43,154 bases of DNA, from assembly GCA_025062325.1 (NCBI GenBank), contig JANXAL010000127.1:68358-111511 (forward strand), in the 5' to 3' direction. The notes below the pieces were generated by a model, which was not told the origin of the DNA, did not search any database, and was given only the letters and a program-made list of their open reading frames with translations. The translations under genes and the position numbers were made by a program. Origin of the DNA: Roseiflexus sp. (GTDB lineage: Bacteria; Chloroflexota; Chloroflexia; Chloroflexales; Roseiflexaceae). The number at the start of each line of letters is the position of its first letter. Position 1 is the stretch's first letter. Shown here one piece after another: positions 34,084 to 42,226 of this stretch.

Positions 34084-34560
34084 CGCATCGTGACGCCCGT
34101 TTTCCCCCTCATCCCCCAACCCCCTTCTCCCACACGGGGAGAAGGGGGCGCCTCTCACGTGGAGGCTTTTTGGCGTGCACAGCGGGCATGCCGCATCCTG
34201 ACGCCCGTTTTCCCCCTCATCCCCCAACCCCCTTCTCCCACCAGGGGAGAAGGGGGCGCCTCTCACGTAGAGGCTTTTTGGCGTGCACAGCGGGTGTGCC
34301 GCATCCTGACGCCCGTTTTCCCCTCATTCCCCCAACTCCCTTCTCCCACACGGGGAGAAGGGGGCGCCTCTCACGTGGAGGCTTTTTGGCGCGCACAGCG
34401 GGTGTGCCGCATCCTGACGCCCGTTTTCCCTCATCCCCCCGTCCCCCTTCTCCCTCTCAAGTGTAGGCTTTTTGGGGGCCGAAGCAGGTTTGCCGCATCC
34501 TGACGCTCTTTTCCCCTCATCCCCCCGTCCCCCTTCTCCCACAAGGGGAGAAGGGGGAGT
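34084..34560 (+). repeat. 108-bp tandem repeat array
   Basis: Units start with CGCATC(C/G)TGACGCCCGTTTT at 34084, 34192, 34300 and 34408, an exact 108-base period, then a shortened unit to 34494 and a partial unit. Each holds CCCTTCTCCCACACGGGGAG (hairpin-forming with AAGGGGG) and CTCACGTGGAGGCTTTTTGG. The open frames across it are repetitive translations of DNA repeats, not genes. Confidence 0.9.
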
Positions 34561-36056: not shown

Positions 36057-37856
36057 CTACCACACCAGCCGGGCGTTCGGATGGGCGTAGAGGGTATATG
36101 CCAGGAACATGGGGTCGCCGGGGAATGCCGCATGCGTCCTCTGGCGCGCCCGCTGCAGCGACACTGCCAGCGTCGCACCCGGCTGCTGCGTCGCCTGGTA
36201 GAAGGTCTCGGCGAAATGGCGCGCCGCGCCGTCAGGAATCCGCCAGAGCGGTGCGATCAGCGCGCCAACGTGGCAATCCTGCACCAGCGTCTTCGCCCAG
36301 CCCCCCATCCCGGTCAGCGCCAGCCCGCTCTGCCCCGCCCGGCATGCGTTGAGAAAGACCAGGGGCCGGTCGGTCCGGAGGCGCGTCTGTGCCGGGCCGA
36401 CCACATCGTGAGGGCGCAGGCGGCGACCGCCCTCCAGGATCAGCGGCGAATTGCCGGGCGCAGCCGCGTCGTATTCGCCATGGCAGGCGAAGTGCCACAG
36501 ATGCACCGGATCGTTGCCGGTGAGCAGCGCCTCGACCAGGTCGCGCCGCGCTGCCGCCGGGGAGCGATCAACCCGGTGCGCAGGATTGGCCAGTCCACGC
36601 ACAAATGCCGCTTCGTGCTGCGCCTCCGTCAACCCGGAGTCGGTCGGCGCGATGCAGGCAAGGCTCTGCACGGCGATCTCGGCGGCTGGCGCCGCGCCGC
36701 CGCTGACCCAGCGGCTGAGGTCGTACTGCATGCAGAGGAAGTCGTCGTCAACGCCGTCGTCGAAGGGACGGATCAGTTCCCACGGAATCCATGGCTCGTC
36801 GGAGACGATCTCAATCGTGCGCACCCTGCCGCGGATCCGCTCGCGGTACTCAAGGCGCATGTCGTCGTTGAACAGTTCGTTGTAGAGTCGCCAGCCGATC
36901 TTGCGCATACCAGATAGCAAATCGCCGCTATCCAGCCGATACCCGTCAATGTCAAGCCCTTTCGCTAACTGTTCGATCTCACGGATGGTCTGATAACGGT
37001 ACTGCTCCGGGTCGCCGCGCAGCACGCCGCCGTTGATGATCCGCTCTTCGGTCGTGGCGTAGTTCAGGGTATAGGTCAGACGATTGTCCTTCGTGACTAC
37101 CCGCAGCACCAGGTCGGGAAAGGGCGCGCGGTAATCGCCGATGGTGACGGGCTGCCCTGGCAGTTTGCCCGGCTCGCCGCTGACCTCCACTGTCTGCGCT
37201 TCCAGCGTGTGGGTGATGCTGGCCAGCAAATGACTCTGGCGGTAGAAGTCGATCACGACCGAGTGCAGCCCGACCTCTGTTGCGCGCAGGTAGAAGACGA
37301 CCGGCTGGCTGTCTCCCTCTTCCACCCGCAGGGTCTGCACCGGTTCGCTCAACAGTTCCGGTCCGCGCGGGGTCAGCACGACCCTGATCAGCTCATTGAG
37401 CCGCGCCTGGATCGCTCTGCTCTCCTGATCATCGGCGGGTGAGCGGGTCAGCCCGACGACGACCGGGAAGCGCGCGCCGACCGTGACCCGCGCAGGGGCG
37501 TAGATGTCGGTGTAGCGGGTGACGGCGGGCGGGTCAAGGATGTCGTGCAGGCGGCTGGCGGCTTCAGTGGGACCGAGCAGCCCGGCAGGCGCCGCGCCAG
37601 AGCCAACCACGTCGCCGCGCTGCCCGCTGGCAGCTTCGAGGTAGCGGCGCAGCGTGGCGCGCCCGTCGGGCAGATCACGAAGCAGGCGCTGCACTTCCAA
37701 CGCAACTGCGGATCGCTCTTCGCTATCGCGCGCGGCAGCGTAGCGGCGCAACAGATCAAGCGCCCGCCAGTAGCGCGCCGGATCGACTGCGCTGCGGGAA
37801 AGATCAGTCCACAGGTCGAGCAGCGCCCGCACTGCCGGATGTTCGATGATCATCAC
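36057..37856 (-). CDS. CHAT-domain (caspase-like) protease, second gene of operon
   Basis: Protein of 599 residues. A short helical N-terminal part (1-85) leads to a beta-rich region (about 120-240; YTDIYAPARVTVGARFPVVV), a middle domain (about 250-400) and a C-terminal CHAT domain (about 400-599). The predicted catalytic dyad is His459 (WHFACHGEY) and Cys505 (LNACRAGQSG), the order and spacing of clan CD caspase-type peptidases. It starts at GTG (37856), overlapping the upstream stop (GTGA), behind GAGGAGGTG; an ATG three bases on is also possible. It has no TPRs, unlike its partner, and may be its substrate, co-protease or executioner. Confidence 0.85.
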   Translation of the reverse strand: MMIIEHPAVRALLDLWTDLSRSAVDPARYWRALDLLRRYAAARDSEERSAVALEVQRLLRDLPDGRATLRRYLEAASGQRGDVVGSGAAPAGLLGPTEAASRLHDILDPPAVTRYTDIYAPARVTVGARFPVVVGLTRSPADDQESRAIQARLNELIRVVLTPRGPELLSEPVQTLRVEEGDSQPVVFYLRATEVGLHSVVIDFYRQSHLLASITHTLEAQTVEVSGEPGKLPGQPVTIGDYRAPFPDLVLRVVTKDNRLTYTLNYATTEERIINGGVLRGDPEQYRYQTIREIEQLAKGLDIDGYRLDSGDLLSGMRKIGWRLYNELFNDDMRLEYRERIRGRVRTIEIVSDEPWIPWELIRPFDDGVDDDFLCMQYDLSRWVSGGAAPAAEIAVQSLACIAPTDSGLTEAQHEAAFVRGLANPAHRVDRSPAAARRDLVEALLTGNDPVHLWHFACHGEYDAAAPGNSPLILEGGRRLRPHDVVGPAQTRLRTDRPLVFLNACRAGQSGLALTGMGGWAKTLVQDCHVGALIAPLWRIPDGAARHFAETFYQATQQPGATLAVSLQRARQRTHAAFPGDPMFLAYTLYAHPNARLVW

Positions 37857-40800
37857 AGTCGCACCTCCTCAGCGCCAGTGAACGTAAAGGGCGCCCAGTA
37901 GTTTGGGCTGGCATACGGACGTTCCTGCTGCGGATTCTCGGCAGTCGTCACTTTGCCAAACAACTCCTCGATCAGAGTCACAGGCATGCGCCGACCACTT
38001 TCGAGACGGGCGCGGGCGATGGCTTCGTGGCGTTCCAGGTATGTTTCGAGTTCCGCCGCAGTCACATCACGCAGCCAGCGCTGCGCCCGCCGCACCGCTC
38101 GCGCAGCGGGCAATCCTTCCTGCTGCATATACTCATAGATGCGGGTGACCAGCAGCGCGGTTGCGGCGTCGTCCACACTCCACAGCGTGCCGATCACCCC
38201 CGGCACACCCGCCTGCAAGAAGCCAGCCGGCAGCCCGATCGACTCTTCGGGCAGGTTGCGGAAATCGGTGATCGCCGTCTGGCAGGCTGAGAGGGTTGCC
38301 AGCCGGGTGTGGCGCAGCGTGGTCTGCTCCATGTCGAGCAGATCGCGCAGGGTGAGCCGTTCCTCCTGCCCGGCGGCGTTGTAGAGCAGCAGCCCCGACT
38401 CGAGCGGATCATCCGCTCGAAAGACGCCGTGGCAGGAGAGGTGCAGCGCGGTCGCGCCATCCATCCGCTCCCGCAGCGCCGCCAGCGTCGCTGACTGCTC
38501 ATAGAGCGCCGTGGCTGCGCTGGCGGGCAGCAGATCAATCACGCTATCCAGTTCCGCCTTCGCATAGCGCAGACTGCTGGGCCACTGCGCAGCCAGTTGC
38601 CGAAGCTGCTGCACCGCGTCGCCCCACGCATCTGGCAGCTCTCTGATCTGGCGCTGCAACTCAAATCCTTCGTGGATCAACTGCCCGGTCGGCAGCGCTA
38701 CCAGACTGCGCAACTCCTTCGCTGCCGGATCGTCGGGCAACGCCGCCGCTGCCGCCAGCAACTGCTGGTGCAATTCGGCGAGCGCGGCGACCGGCGGCAG
38801 CGGGTTGCCCACCCCGGCGAGGCGCAGTGGCGCAGCGCGCCGTTCGGCGGCGTGGCGGCGCGCCTCGCGCAGCGCCAGCGCGCTGGGGGCGTAACAGACC
38901 GTGACGTGATCGATGACGTGCGTGCCGTCGGGCAGTTGCGCCGCGTGCAGCGGCAACAGTGCCAGCCGCCCGGTGGGGATGAGGATGATGGTGTTCGCGC
39001 CCGCTTCTCCCTCTTCCCGCTCCCGCAGTGCGGGAGAGGGCAGGGGACCGGAGGGAAGAGTGAGGGCATCCAGCACCGGTCCCATCACCTTCGCGCCCAA
39101 TTCCGGCAGCAACCGCGCCAGCGCAGCGGGCATCCAGTCTGTGACTGCCAGTTGCGCTGGCAGGTAGCCGCCGGTCACATTCTTTCCTTCCGCATCGGTC
39201 TCAACCAGCCAGCCGTTCAGGGCAGCCTCAGTCAACTCCGGCAGATCCACCGCCTGCACGCCGCCAGCGTGGACGATCAGCGCCGCGCCGCCGACCGGCG
39301 TGGCAAGCAGGTAGACCAGCGGCGCGATTTGAGCGATGGATTGGATGTCGGGGAAGGTGGGATCGCTCATGAAGGAACGAAACGCTGGATCGTGCACACC
39401 GGCCTGTTCGCGTATCGCGCGCCCGGCATCGCTCAGAGCCTGTCGCGCGGCCTCAATACGAGTGTGCCAACTGGGCGGGCGCGTTTCGCTCTGCGCCAGC
39501 ACCAGCAGATCGCTATACTCCTGGCGCGCGCGCAGATAGGCGGAAAGGAGATCGGCAAACCCCATTGCTGGCAACCGACTCAGATCGCGGCGGTTCTGCT
39601 CCAACGCCTCGCGCAACAGACGGGCACGCCCCGTTTCCAACGCCGATAACGCCTGTTCTGGCTGACGTTGCTGAATGAAAGCATACGCCAGGCGAACAGG
39701 AACTTCTTGTGCATCCCTGAGCCAGAGCAACTTTTCTTCGCGCCGATACTGGATTGCAAACAAGCGCCTAACCGCCTGCATTGCATATGTATATGCTGCG
39801 ACTGTCTCGTCCCACGCATGACGATTGAATGTCCAATCACCCCAGTTGCGACCCGCCCTCAATACGTCTTCTAGCGATGTTTCTAGTCCTGATACGCATG
39901 CCGTGCGAAATGCCTCCTGTGCCGCTTGCAAATCGGCGCGTGTACTAGTTCGAGCATAGCGGTCGCGTAGCCCATTCCCCAAGTTGTTCAAGATTGTAGA
40001 ACGTTCGGGGGCATCAGGCGGGGTGGCTTTGAGAGCGTCCTCGAAGTTCTTGATAGCGACATCAAGGTCTGCGAGATTGCCAGTGCGGACATAGCGGATG
40101 CGCAGCTCATTCCCTAGATTGTTCAGGATCGCGGCACGGCGGGGAGCGTCGGACGGAGTAGCATCGCGAGCCTCCTCAAAGCGCATAATGGCTTCATTGA
40201 GGTCTGCCAGGTTACCGCTGCGGGTGTAACGGTCGCGTAGCCCTGTCCCTAGGTTGTTCAGGTATATCGGACGGTCGAGGGCATCAGGCGGAGCGGTAGC
40301 GAGAGCCTCCTCGAAGAGTGCAATGGCGGCATTGAGGTCTGCCAGGTTGCCGGTGCGAGCATAACGATCACGCAGTCCTGTTCCCAGGTTGTTCAAGCGA
40401 GAGGAGCGGTCGGGGGCATCAGGCGGAGTAGCAGCGAGAGCCTCCTCGAAGCGCGCAATAGCGGCATCCAGATCTGCAAGATTACCGGTACAGGCATAAC
40501 GGTCGCGCAGCCCCGTCCCCAGGTTGTTCAGGTACATAGGGCGGTCAGGGGCACCAGACGGAGCAGCAGCAAGGGCGTTCTCATAGTGCGCAATAGCGGC
40601 ATTCAGATCTGCAAGATTACCGGTACGGACATAACGGTCGCGCAGCCCATTCCCCAGGTTGTTCACGCGAGAGGGACGATCTGGGTCGTCGGGCGGAGTA
40701 ACGGCAAGGGCCTTCTCATAGTGCGCAATAGCGGCATTCAGATCTGCAAGATTACCAGTACGGGCATAACGGTCGCGCAGCCCATTCCCTAGGTTGTTCA

Positions 40801-42226
40801 GGATTACAGGACGGTCGGGGGCATCGAACGGGGCGGCGACGAGGGCCTCCTCGAAGCGCGCAATGGCAGTATCGAGGTCGGCGGGGTTACCGGTGCGGGC
40901 ATAACGGTCGCGCAGCCCATTCCCCAGGTTGTTCAAGATTTTAGGACGACCAGGGGTATCGAACGGGACAGCGACGAGGGCCTCCTCGAAGCGCGCAATA
41001 GCAGTATCGAGGTCAGCGAGATTGCCAGTGCGAGCGTAGCGGGCGCGTAGCCCATTCCCCAGGTTATTCAGGATTGCGGAACGAACAGAAATGTCAGACG
41101 AACTGGTGGAAAGGGCAGTTTCCCATAAGTGTAGAGCGGAGTTCAAATCGCTGACACGCCCCTGCCGCCAGTAGCGCCGTAAATATGCGCCACCGGCATT
41201 ATTTAAAACTATCCGACAAAACCACTGCTCAGTCCGCCCAAACTCAGCATGATTGAGTATCCGCTCCCACGCTGCCACAGCCTCATCGAGCGCTTCGATG
41301 TCACTGCTCCGCTCGTAGCGCACCAATGCTTCGGCAGCAATCTGTACATCGGCAGCGAAGGCAGGAGGAACGACAAGACCGCCAGCATCAGCAGCGGCCC
41401 GCATCAGCTTCTCAAGCAGATCGGGATGTTCCTGCAATGCCTGTTCCAGGTCCTCAGGAGAGCGAACCTCAACGCCTGCGACTGCCAGTTGCTCGAGCAC
41501 TTCACGGAGCGCCTGCGCGATCTCCGGCGGCAGGTTGGCGCTCTCTGCAGTGATGCCAGAAGGAGCAGGCGTGGTTGTCTTCTCCGCAAACGCCTGCTCG
41601 ATCCCGACCTTGCGGCAGCGGCGCAACAGGGCGCGGTGCTCCTCAAGGATGCGCTGCGCATTCTCATCGCCCTGCGCGCGGAAGGCGGCGCTCAACCGCT
41701 CGAGCAGCATATCGGCGACAGGGCTGAACAGTTCCGGGTGTTGTTCGAGAATGCGGCGCGATTCGTCCCATGTGCGGGCATTGATAAATTGCTCGAGGAG
41801 ATCTGCCAATCGGCGCACTGCCTGCTCCAGGTCATCACTCAGCGCCAGCGGCAGCAGTTCGCGTCGCGCGTTTGTGATCCGTTCCAGCCACTCGTCGCGC
41901 CATGCGTCGCCAGACGCGTTGCGCAGGCGAGTGAGCAATTCCACGGCGTGGCGCTGGTCCTCTTCGACGCTGGTACTCCGCGCTGGCGAAAAGATCAGGC
42001 GCGCATCGGCGTCGGCGGTCGGCGGAACATAGACCAGCAGCGGCGCGTCGATGTCAACGCTGTTCCCGCAGTGCGGACAGGCGAGGCGGTGCAGCGTCCC
42101 GTTGCGCAGGCGGTCGATCAGGTCGGGGCGGGCGGCGGCGTCAACAATCAGCCAGAGGTCGGCGGTGAACGTGCGACCGCAGGCGGGGCAGGTGAGGGAT
42201 GCCGGGATGCTCTCTGAACAATCCAT
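37853..42226 (-). CDS. CpXC zinc-ribbon / TPR / CHAT-domain protein
   Basis: Very large protein of 1457 residues. The N terminus is a CpXC-like zinc ribbon (Cys13, Cys16, Cys50, Cys53). A charged helical region (about 85-340) follows, then a tetratricopeptide array: one divergent repeat and eight consecutive 45-residue units from Ile385 to about 744, plus a partial ninth, with consensus LNNLGNGLRDRYARTGNLAD. After a further helical part (about 800-960) comes the C-terminal CHAT protease domain (about 1100-1440) with His1266 (LSCHGVF) and Cys1315 (TLSACQT). The ATG is at 42226. The TPR-plus-CHAT design is shared with Csx29 of type III-E CRISPR systems, but no CRISPR gene is here. Confidence 0.88.
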   Translation of the reverse strand: MDCSESIPASLTCPACGRTFTADLWLIVDAAARPDLIDRLRNGTLHRLACPHCGNSVDIDAPLLVYVPPTADADARLIFSPARSTSVEEDQRHAVELLTRLRNASGDAWRDEWLERITNARRELLPLALSDDLEQAVRRLADLLEQFINARTWDESRRILEQHPELFSPVADMLLERLSAAFRAQGDENAQRILEEHRALLRRCRKVGIEQAFAEKTTTPAPSGITAESANLPPEIAQALREVLEQLAVAGVEVRSPEDLEQALQEHPDLLEKLMRAAADAGGLVVPPAFAADVQIAAEALVRYERSSDIEALDEAVAAWERILNHAEFGRTEQWFCRIVLNNAGGAYLRRYWRQGRVSDLNSALHLWETALSTSSSDISVRSAILNNLGNGLRARYARTGNLADLDTAIARFEEALVAVPFDTPGRPKILNNLGNGLRDRYARTGNPADLDTAIARFEEALVAAPFDAPDRPVILNNLGNGLRDRYARTGNLADLNAAIAHYEKALAVTPPDDPDRPSRVNNLGNGLRDRYVRTGNLADLNAAIAHYENALAAAPSGAPDRPMYLNNLGTGLRDRYACTGNLADLDAAIARFEEALAATPPDAPDRSSRLNNLGTGLRDRYARTGNLADLNAAIALFEEALATAPPDALDRPIYLNNLGTGLRDRYTRSGNLADLNEAIMRFEEARDATPSDAPRRAAILNNLGNELRIRYVRTGNLADLDVAIKNFEDALKATPPDAPERSTILNNLGNGLRDRYARTSTRADLQAAQEAFRTACVSGLETSLEDVLRAGRNWGDWTFNRHAWDETVAAYTYAMQAVRRLFAIQYRREEKLLWLRDAQEVPVRLAYAFIQQRQPEQALSALETGRARLLREALEQNRRDLSRLPAMGFADLLSAYLRARQEYSDLLVLAQSETRPPSWHTRIEAARQALSDAGRAIREQAGVHDPAFRSFMSDPTFPDIQSIAQIAPLVYLLATPVGGAALIVHAGGVQAVDLPELTEAALNGWLVETDAEGKNVTGGYLPAQLAVTDWMPAALARLLPELGAKVMGPVLDALTLPSGPLPSPALREREEGEAGANTIILIPTGRLALLPLHAAQLPDGTHVIDHVTVCYAPSALALREARRHAAERRAAPLRLAGVGNPLPPVAALAELHQQLLAAAAALPDDPAAKELRSLVALPTGQLIHEGFELQRQIRELPDAWGDAVQQLRQLAAQWPSSLRYAKAELDSVIDLLPASAATALYEQSATLAALRERMDGATALHLSCHGVFRADDPLESGLLLYNAAGQEERLTLRDLLDMEQTTLRHTRLATLSACQTAITDFRNLPEESIGLPAGFLQAGVPGVIGTLWSVDDAATALLVTRIYEYMQQEGLPAARAVRRAQRWLRDVTAAELETYLERHEAIARARLESGRRMPVTLIEELFGKVTTAENPQQERPYASPNYWAPFTFTGAEEVRL
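39890..41077 (-). repeat. 135-bp internal repeats encoding the TPR array
   Basis: Eight full 135-base units and a partial ninth, in perfect register and very similar at the DNA level (for example GGTCGCGCAGCCCATTCCCC recurs almost unchanged). Such similarity at DNA level points to recent duplication or ongoing homogenisation. Confidence 0.9.

Follow-up and report, generated by a model that had tools for sequence, protein, structure and literature searches.

Two overlapping genes, here called A and B, lie on the minus strand at positions 36057-42226 of the window (the whole stretch of 43,154 nucleotides that was analysed, from Roseiflexus sp.) and constitute, as judged from homologous loci, a conserved two-protease module. 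It is proposed, with a probability of about 0.45, that A is a sensor or initiator protease and B a docked executioner activated by A, and that the two form a horizontally mobile module for growth arrest or killing. The proposal is drawn from sequence, namely from the pairing, the catalytic dyads, the predicted folds, the module borders, transfer, array variation and the co-inheritance of the N-terminal domain of B with A; from these we infer docking, the direction of activation, the cleavage site, the trigger and the outcome. If A does activate B, the pair would be a compact natural counterpart of the initiator-executioner caspase cascade of animals, operating without CRISPR or a nucleotide messenger.

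Organization of the gene pair and domains of the proteins

Gene A (37853..42226, minus strand) starts with ATG and encodes 1457 amino acids, comprising a zinc ribbon, a helical region, a TPR array and a CHAT protease domain. Gene B (36057..37856, minus strand) encodes 599 amino acids with a helical N-terminal domain, an Ig-like beta-sandwich and a CHAT protease domain, and its GTG start overlaps the stop of A by 4 nt. The surroundings of the pair are housekeeping in character and, in agreement with the initial annotation, no defence genes were recognised among the main window ORFs read by eye. A second copy of the pair, decayed, is located on contig C111 of the same genome.

The CpXC-type zinc ribbon of A (CPAC...CPHC, residues 11-94, 41945..42196) matches Pfam PF14353 with an E value of 9.5e-13 and is also present in the A homologues of genomes G047 and G057. 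It is followed by a helical region (residues 101-330, 41237..41926) which is conserved in relatives and has no Pfam family above cutoff. The TPR array (residues 341-790, 39857..41206) comprises ten 45-aa units when counted by eye from residue 341, and about 8.3 copies of a 135 bp period according to TRF; the Pfam matches and this repeat unit bear out the ribbon and TPRs previously ascribed to A. Among relatives of A the number of TPR copies ranges from about 2 to 13, and in G047 the copies are 93% identical. Diversifying positions within the units were sought, and no hypervariable columns stood out, the variation being a change in copy number only. The pair also makes it possible to test what extended, nearly identical TPR arrays do in CHAT proteins of bacteria. 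The CHAT caspase-like domain of A (residues 1062-1451, 37874..39043) scores 181 bits against PF12770 (E 3.6e-53), where the Pfam cutoff is 24 bits. A short palindrome at 39016-39040, inside this region, is common to other sites of the genome. In an AlphaFold2 model of residues 801-1457, with a pLDDT of 77 for the C-terminus, the putative catalytic residues H1266 (codon 38429..38431) and C1315 (38282..38284), both invariant columns in alignments of relatives, are placed within a predicted caspase fold.

Protein B begins with the helical domain (residues 1-82, 37611..37856), which is the proposed docking domain for A; a flexible linker with a conserved Arg follows at approximately residues 80-111. 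No homotypic contact with the helical region of A was indicated, as neither hhalign (probability 1%) nor hmmsearch detected any resemblance between the two. The Ig-like beta-sandwich (residues 108-240, 37137..37535) is recognised by the strands of the AlphaFold2 model and by complement-type Ig-like matches in Foldseek. The initial annotation had described the N-terminal part of B as beta-rich, which holds for the sandwich, but it missed the separate helical domain ahead of it and likewise passed over the palindrome and the decayed second copy on C111. The CHAT caspase-like domain of B (residues 347-597, 36066..36818) reaches 69.8 bits in Pfam (E 3.5e-19, match 347-573). The model of B has a pLDDT of 83 and places H459 (36480..36482) and C505 (36342..36344), invariant columns in the alignment of B relatives, within a predicted caspase fold; C505 is kept in every B compared. 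By domain score and His/Cys dyad, both proteins are classed as members of the CHAT (clan CD, PF12770) protease family, and the overlapping genes and both dyads were correctly located at the outset.

Pairing, horizontal transfer and partner exchange

In 158 genomes of the class, a B-type gene adjoins A in all ten strong A homologues (>600 bits), and further pairs were found in an Anaerolineae MAG and in the actinomycete Sphaerisporangium melleum. The pair is also retained in G842, with the two genes in the opposite order. Every A tested retains the His/Cys dyad, as do all paired B proteins except B' on contig C73 of G028, where Tyr replaces His; proteolysis by B may therefore not always be needed. 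The initial annotation had suggested that the module would be put in doubt by homologues that never occur in pairs or by loss of the catalytic residues in most relatives; strong A homologues always stand beside a B-type gene, and the dyads persist in nearly all cases. The distribution of the pair is patchy, and several copies are frameshifted or truncated.

Genomes G003 and G047 belong to different families and share A and B at about 93% DNA identity. The homology spans exactly the region from the ATG start codon of A to the stop of B, the flanks are unrelated, and the groEL genes are 78.6% identical (groEL identities are quoted from same-orientation sequence pairs only); therefore the module moves horizontally. 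The transferred unit consists of A and B with no third gene. These observations also bear on a somewhat unlikely alternative in which A and B are stably bound in a complex and both CHAT domains act on a third, unlinked cellular substrate without cutting each other. Such an arrangement would agree with the constant pairing and the retention of both dyads, and the closest folds, Csx29 and separase, each cut a separate protein. As no third gene is transferred, the substrate would have to be a common host protein; a conserved substrate gene was not found, and a complex of this kind alone predicts neither a sharp exchange border inside B nor the divergent, His-less B' of G028.

The exchange border is seen in three recombinant copies, in which the first ~100 residues of B stay with the CHAT domain of A and the Ig-CHAT part of B is swapped. 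When G001 is compared with G003, the zinc ribbon (82-88%) and the Ig-CHAT part of B (82-93%) are retained, and between them lies a foreign block of TPR, CHAT and the B N-terminal domain (42-69%); the G001 contig, which measures 5.2 kb and carries frameshifts, may be a chimeric assembly. In G831 versus G824, A and the N-terminal domain of B are retained and the Ig-CHAT part is different. In B' of G028 the N-terminal domain is still recognisable, with the rest just ~10-24% identical to other B proteins. The N-terminal domain of B occurs in 8 of 400 genomes of the phylum and adjoins A in seven of these eight. Its distances correlate with those of the CHAT domain of A at r 0.89, and for the rest of B the value is 0.40-0.44; the excess stems from the three recombinants and is gone when they are removed. 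The global correlation of A and B distances is modest (r 0.53, 63/5000 permutations) because of partner exchange. The 3' end of A adjoins the 5' end of B, and this adjacency could by itself hold them within one recombination tract, which is a counterpoint to docking.

It can be said that the tracking of A by the N-terminal domain of B through three recombination events gives indirect support to a sensor-partner relation: the start of B appears to evolve with A, which suggests that a sensor protease may switch on its partner protease. The same tracking would be expected of an inhibitory pro-domain and so fits a reverse order, in which B is sensor-side or constitutive and A is the effector, or in which B resembles an inhibitor that holds A off until its N-terminal domain is cut; the persistence of the pair where B' of G028 has lost its His is also in keeping with this. 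However, the reverse order is considered quite improbable, for the zinc ribbon and repeats of a ligand-binding type sit in A, whose array varies most, and B is the part that recurs with other CHAT partners and in fusions with TIR. If A activates B, the natural domain exchanges mark the sites at which recombined proteins could reveal how the trigger is coupled to the effector.

Genomic context of B relatives

Elsewhere, relatives of B follow CHAT-PD40 (CHAT-propeller) partners or CHAT-SIR2 and nSTAND-WD40 partners; others are fusions with TIR. The initial annotation had raised the question whether the pair is conserved and lies in defence islands. Conservation was found; no defence island surrounds the pair in the window or in the other close-relative loci read, and clusters of CHAT, TIR and caspase genes were seen only around more distant relatives of B, carried on plasmids of Agrobacterium and Hymenobacter. 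Phage records had no match to B, and a phage origin was discarded.

The housekeeping surroundings of the window and other loci would suit a regulatory or developmental protease pair outside any conflict system, comparable to HetF, a CHAT protein of cyanobacteria, or to an anti-sigma factor that undergoes proteolysis. A related CHAT-PD40 partner is weakly HetF-like (109 bits, cutoff 1200) and the fold matches include the anti-sigma factor DdvA. This explanation is given a low probability, since the patchy distribution, recent inter-family transfer, frequent decay and rapid change in repeat number, together with the TIR, SIR2, nSTAND and plasmid settings in which relatives occur, are more in keeping with conflict genes.

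Proposed mechanism

According to the preferred reading, with A as initiator and B as executioner, a trigger would bind the zinc ribbon and the changeable TPR array of A and turn on its CHAT protease. The N-terminal helical domain would serve B as its dock on A, and A would in turn activate B, cleavage of the flexible linker around residues 80-111 with its conserved Arg being the most likely means. The released or rearranged Ig-CHAT part of B could then cut cellular proteins, leading to growth stop or cell death; this would probably constitute a response of the anti-invader or self/non-self kind. As a tentative extension, the pair may be a mobile bacterial initiator-executioner pair of caspase fold whose rapidly changing TPR sensor cassette, along with the docking domain of B, is exchanged against a constant executioner, coupling new triggers to one death protease.

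Comparison with known systems

The AlphaFold models of A and B match Csx29 and separase strongly. Csx29 is the closest solved structure for the C-terminal half of A (VIA Z 33.8, rmsd 2.6, 343 residues, 18% identity), its TPR-CHAT layout is like that of A, and it matches B with a VIA Z of about 22. In type III-E CRISPR (Craspase), Csx29 is triggered and cuts a separate protein, Csx30 (PMC10028731, PMC11106740). Membership in Craspase was rejected, as A scored 35.2 bits with the Csx29 model NCBIfam NF041237 (cutoff 300) and B gave no match. Unlike Csx29, A carries a CpXC ribbon and a long array of 45-aa units and has a second CHAT protease as its partner; neither Cas7-11 nor Csx30 was recognised among the main window ORFs read by eye, on a contig that ends 928 bases past A. 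Separase, which cuts a separate partner protein, matches both CHAT domains in fold, that of B with a Z of about 22 and that of A with a Z of up to 27, and, like A, has helical repeats ahead of the protease. In contrast to separase, A and B are bacterial and provide two proteases per operon, their sequence identity to separase is about 15%, and we know of no securin-like inhibitor for them.

SAVED-CHAT of type III CRISPR (PDB 8tl0) is a CHAT protease of a signalling cascade and matches B with a VIA Z of 18.8 and A with 16.6. Steens and co-workers reportedly found in 2024 that it cuts another caspase-like protease, and this cascade may be regarded as the closest precedent for activation of B by A; the module differs in lacking a SAVED domain, a cyclic-nucleotide synthase and CRISPR genes. 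Borvo (BovA) is a CHAT anti-phage system (PMC10952713). Its PADLOC model matches A weakly (E 0.0011, 74 residues, 69/720 model positions) and in part of the CHAT domain only, so membership was rejected; unlike Borvo, A and B are two genes with a ribbon, a TPR array and helical and Ig-like domains.

Caspase/CHAT conflict systems of multicellular bacteria, including MoxR-vWA VMAP, iSTAND and EACC1, are described in the consulted parts of Kaur et al. 2020 and 2021 (PMC7159879, PMC8195603), where the architecture of A and B was not found. In contrast to the VMAP and EACC1 systems, the unit of A and B has no MoxR, vWA, VMAP or EACC1 gene; by eye, no MoxR, vWA or EACC1 was recognised in the gene lists around A and B pairs. 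CATRA is a further caspase/CHAT-based conflict system of such bacteria. In the VMAP, iSTAND, EACC1 and CATRA systems, as far as the consulted parts of the sources describe them, caspase-type proteases are associated with sensors and with genes of the TIR, STAND and alpha/beta-hydrolase types. Core domains of CATRA, VMAP and EACC1 were absent from the Pfam matches of A and B up to E 0.1, in a library that may not include every one of these models. A literature search on CHAT proteins returned no description of the pair, in line with the earlier suggestion that the module may be undescribed.

Gene arrangement and pairing

The two open reading frames of the initial annotation are indeed found on the minus strand of the window, gene A at 37853-42226 and gene B, which has a GTG start, at 36057-37856, and the GTG of B shares 4 nt with the TGA of A. 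According to Pfam, A comprises a CpXC zinc ribbon (residues 11-94), TPRs and a CHAT domain (residues 1062-1451, 181 bits), and a CHAT domain occupies residues 347-573 of B (70 bits). The His/Cys dyads proposed earlier, H1266/C1315 in A and H459/C505 in B, are invariant columns in alignments of relatives. The loss of catalytic residues in most relatives, named in advance as counter-evidence, did not occur: both are retained in all A compared and in all paired B except the divergent B-type protein (B') on contig C73 of genome G028, where Tyr replaces the dyad His.

Relatives of A were sought in 158 class genomes, and those of B among 60 relatives, 400 phylum genomes, 158 class genomes and 395 genomes of Sphaerisporangium's class. 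An A homologue above 600 bits occurs in ten class genomes (G047, G003, G831, G824, G058, G057, G028, G842, G000 and G001), and a B-type gene adjoins it in every one, which answers in favour of conservation the earlier question of whether such homologues are ever paired. The remaining A matches reach 360 bits or less and include a relic in G054 with no adjoining B. An Anaerolineae MAG and the actinomycete Sphaerisporangium melleum hold two further pairs, whose B is 70% and about 40% identical respectively. The gene order is reversed in G842, where B precedes A and another B lies upstream. Judging from these genomes, A and B are consistently paired with their catalytic residues kept, and the probability that they are functional partners can be put at about 0.9.

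Module borders, decay and repeats

In G003, of family f1, and G047, of family f4, the A and B genes are about 93% identical at DNA level. The homology is bounded by A's ATG and B's stop codon, and the flanks outside are unalignable; groEL of the two genomes, compared as one copy, is only 78.6% identical. Within one genus, groEL of G003 and G001 is 93% identical and the B genes just 80%. The second, decayed pair of the window's own genome (contig C111) is nearest to that of G824, another family (84%). High identity across families, sharp ends and the affinity of the C111 pair together indicate, at the level of DNA comparison, that A and B are a mobile accessory module limited to these two genes. 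Of the copies examined, six are broken or truncated (A of G003, A of G831, A and B of G001, C111, the Anaerolineae MAG and G054), which fits costly genes of rapid turnover, and some of the frameshifts could be draft-genome sequencing errors.

The TPR array of A consists of ten 45-aa units (residues 341-790), seen in DNA as a 135-bp tandem repeat. TRF counts 8.3 units in the window (77% alike), 12.7 in G047 (93% alike), 2.9 in G831, 1.9 in C111 and 13.4 in G842 (unit 138 bp). No array is called in G003, where about two units are readable before a frameshift and the rest of the module is about 93% identical to G047; A of G057 and G058 has TPR of another kind. As read from these sequences the array grows and shrinks quickly, and such length variability is sensor-like.

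Within the CHAT region of A, in a segment missing from most relatives, an in-frame palindrome of 25 bp, CCCTCTCCCGCACTGCGGGAGCGGG, occupies window 39016-39040. It has four matching sites in the genome, and similar sequence flanks the pairs of G003 and G047; one possibility is a REP-like element that the gene tolerates. A repetitive ORF-like stretch just upstream of tgt (window 34090-34503), in which PSPTRGEGGASHVEAFWRAQR is repeated, has related sequence in locus L038 and looks like an intergenic repeat family.

Predicted structures and exchange within B

The AlphaFold2 model of B (19 sequences, pLDDT 83) contains a helical N-domain (1-107), a beta-sandwich (112-240) and a caspase-type fold, with linker residues 82-88 at very low confidence. 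It is matched best by the structures of separase and Csx29, with Z about 22 across some 300 residues. For the C-terminal 657 residues of A, modelled at pLDDT 77, the match to Csx29 reaches Z 33.8 and spans 343 residues. At the level of predicted fold both proteins resemble Csx29/separase, a likeness which by itself is uninformative on activity.

Sliding identity between G001 and G003 is 82-88% across the zinc ribbon and first ~250 residues of A, 42-69% across the TPRs, the CHAT of A and the N-domain of B, and 82-93% from the start of the Ig-like domain to the end of B. Between G831 and G824 it is 70-93% across the CHAT of A and the first ~300 nt of B and 43-68% thereafter; no comparable drop inside B was seen between G824 and G058. 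B' is less than 25% identical to other B outside the N-domain, and its N-domain, 29-35% identical to the main clade, is still recognised by the profile. Among 400 phylum genomes this profile has matches in eight, seven being B-type genes adjoining A and the eighth belonging to a G401 operon that also encodes nSTAND-WD40 and CHAT-SIR2. When distances are compared across twelve pairs, the CHAT of A and the N-domain of B are correlated at r 0.89 (0/3000 permutations), as against 0.40 for the Ig and 0.44 for the CHAT of B; with the three recombinants omitted the values are 0.94, 0.94 and 0.93 and the difference is gone, so the evidence consists of these three events and no general trend. In these three cases the exchange borders show that the N-domain is inherited along with A, and on the simplest reading it is a putative docking part for A, the Ig-CHAT part being exchangeable.

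An initiator-executioner model, with A acting on B, is held tentatively, at slightly less than even odds, and a scaffold model for the same two proteins is considered unlikely. Under the initiator-executioner model B would dock on A, A would activate B through cleavage in its linker, and the outcome would be cell arrest or death. All ten aligned sequences have an Arg in the linker just past the N-domain, mostly within a TRG, TRS or TRK triplet. Cleavage at this residue is conjectural; it draws some support from the statement that orthocaspases prefer positively charged residues (PMC6426788).

Genomic context and comparison with known systems

By eye, the pair's neighbours in the window serve housekeeping and chemotaxis. 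More distant relatives of B are preceded by a CHAT and PD40 propeller partner (G026) or by CHAT-SIR2 and nSTAND1-WD40 (G401); in G041 the relative is fused to TIR. Alpha/beta hydrolase-like sequences stand before or after several of them (by eye; one weak Pfam match). A Hymenobacter plasmid and plasmids of Agrobacterium and Rhizobium carry B-like CHAT genes, in some cases with more CHAT, TIR, caspase and metallophosphoesterase genes. The Hymenobacter operon (L107 3334-8434, NZ_CP095052.1) encodes a TerB-type protein, a short CHAT, an alpha/beta hydrolase-like protein and the CHAT B relative; a recombinase comes next and, farther along, a DNA methyltransferase and a helicase. The Agrobacterium cluster (L108 4507-14626, NZ_CP039902.1) holds three CHAT genes, a caspase-family gene, TIR genes and a metallophosphoesterase. 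By gene context the B branch belongs with conflict-type genes, a placement which does not in itself give its function.

Several side observations were made. Downstream of the G026 CHAT-PD40 and B genes, a frame with HPHACGDD/PPRVWG repeats (L032 9788-10648) resembles a CRISPR array, its repeats being type I-E-like. In L109 and L110 the neighbours are an S8 peptidase and an ATP-binding protein. TPR-CHAT proteins in L170 (5550-9254) and L171 (6128-9691) are followed by a conserved 116-aa protein with no Pfam match, possibly another two-gene CHAT system.

Many caspase-based conflict systems, including paired caspase domains in VMAP systems, are reported by Kaur et al. (PMC7159879), and PMC8195603 mentions CATRA systems. 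No description of a CpXC-TPR-CHAT and helical-Ig-CHAT pair was found in the open-access papers searched. Protein A was considered as Csx29 and as Borvo, and was rejected as either because it falls short of the criteria for each. Csx29, Borvo and SAVED-CHAT are the nearest functional relatives.
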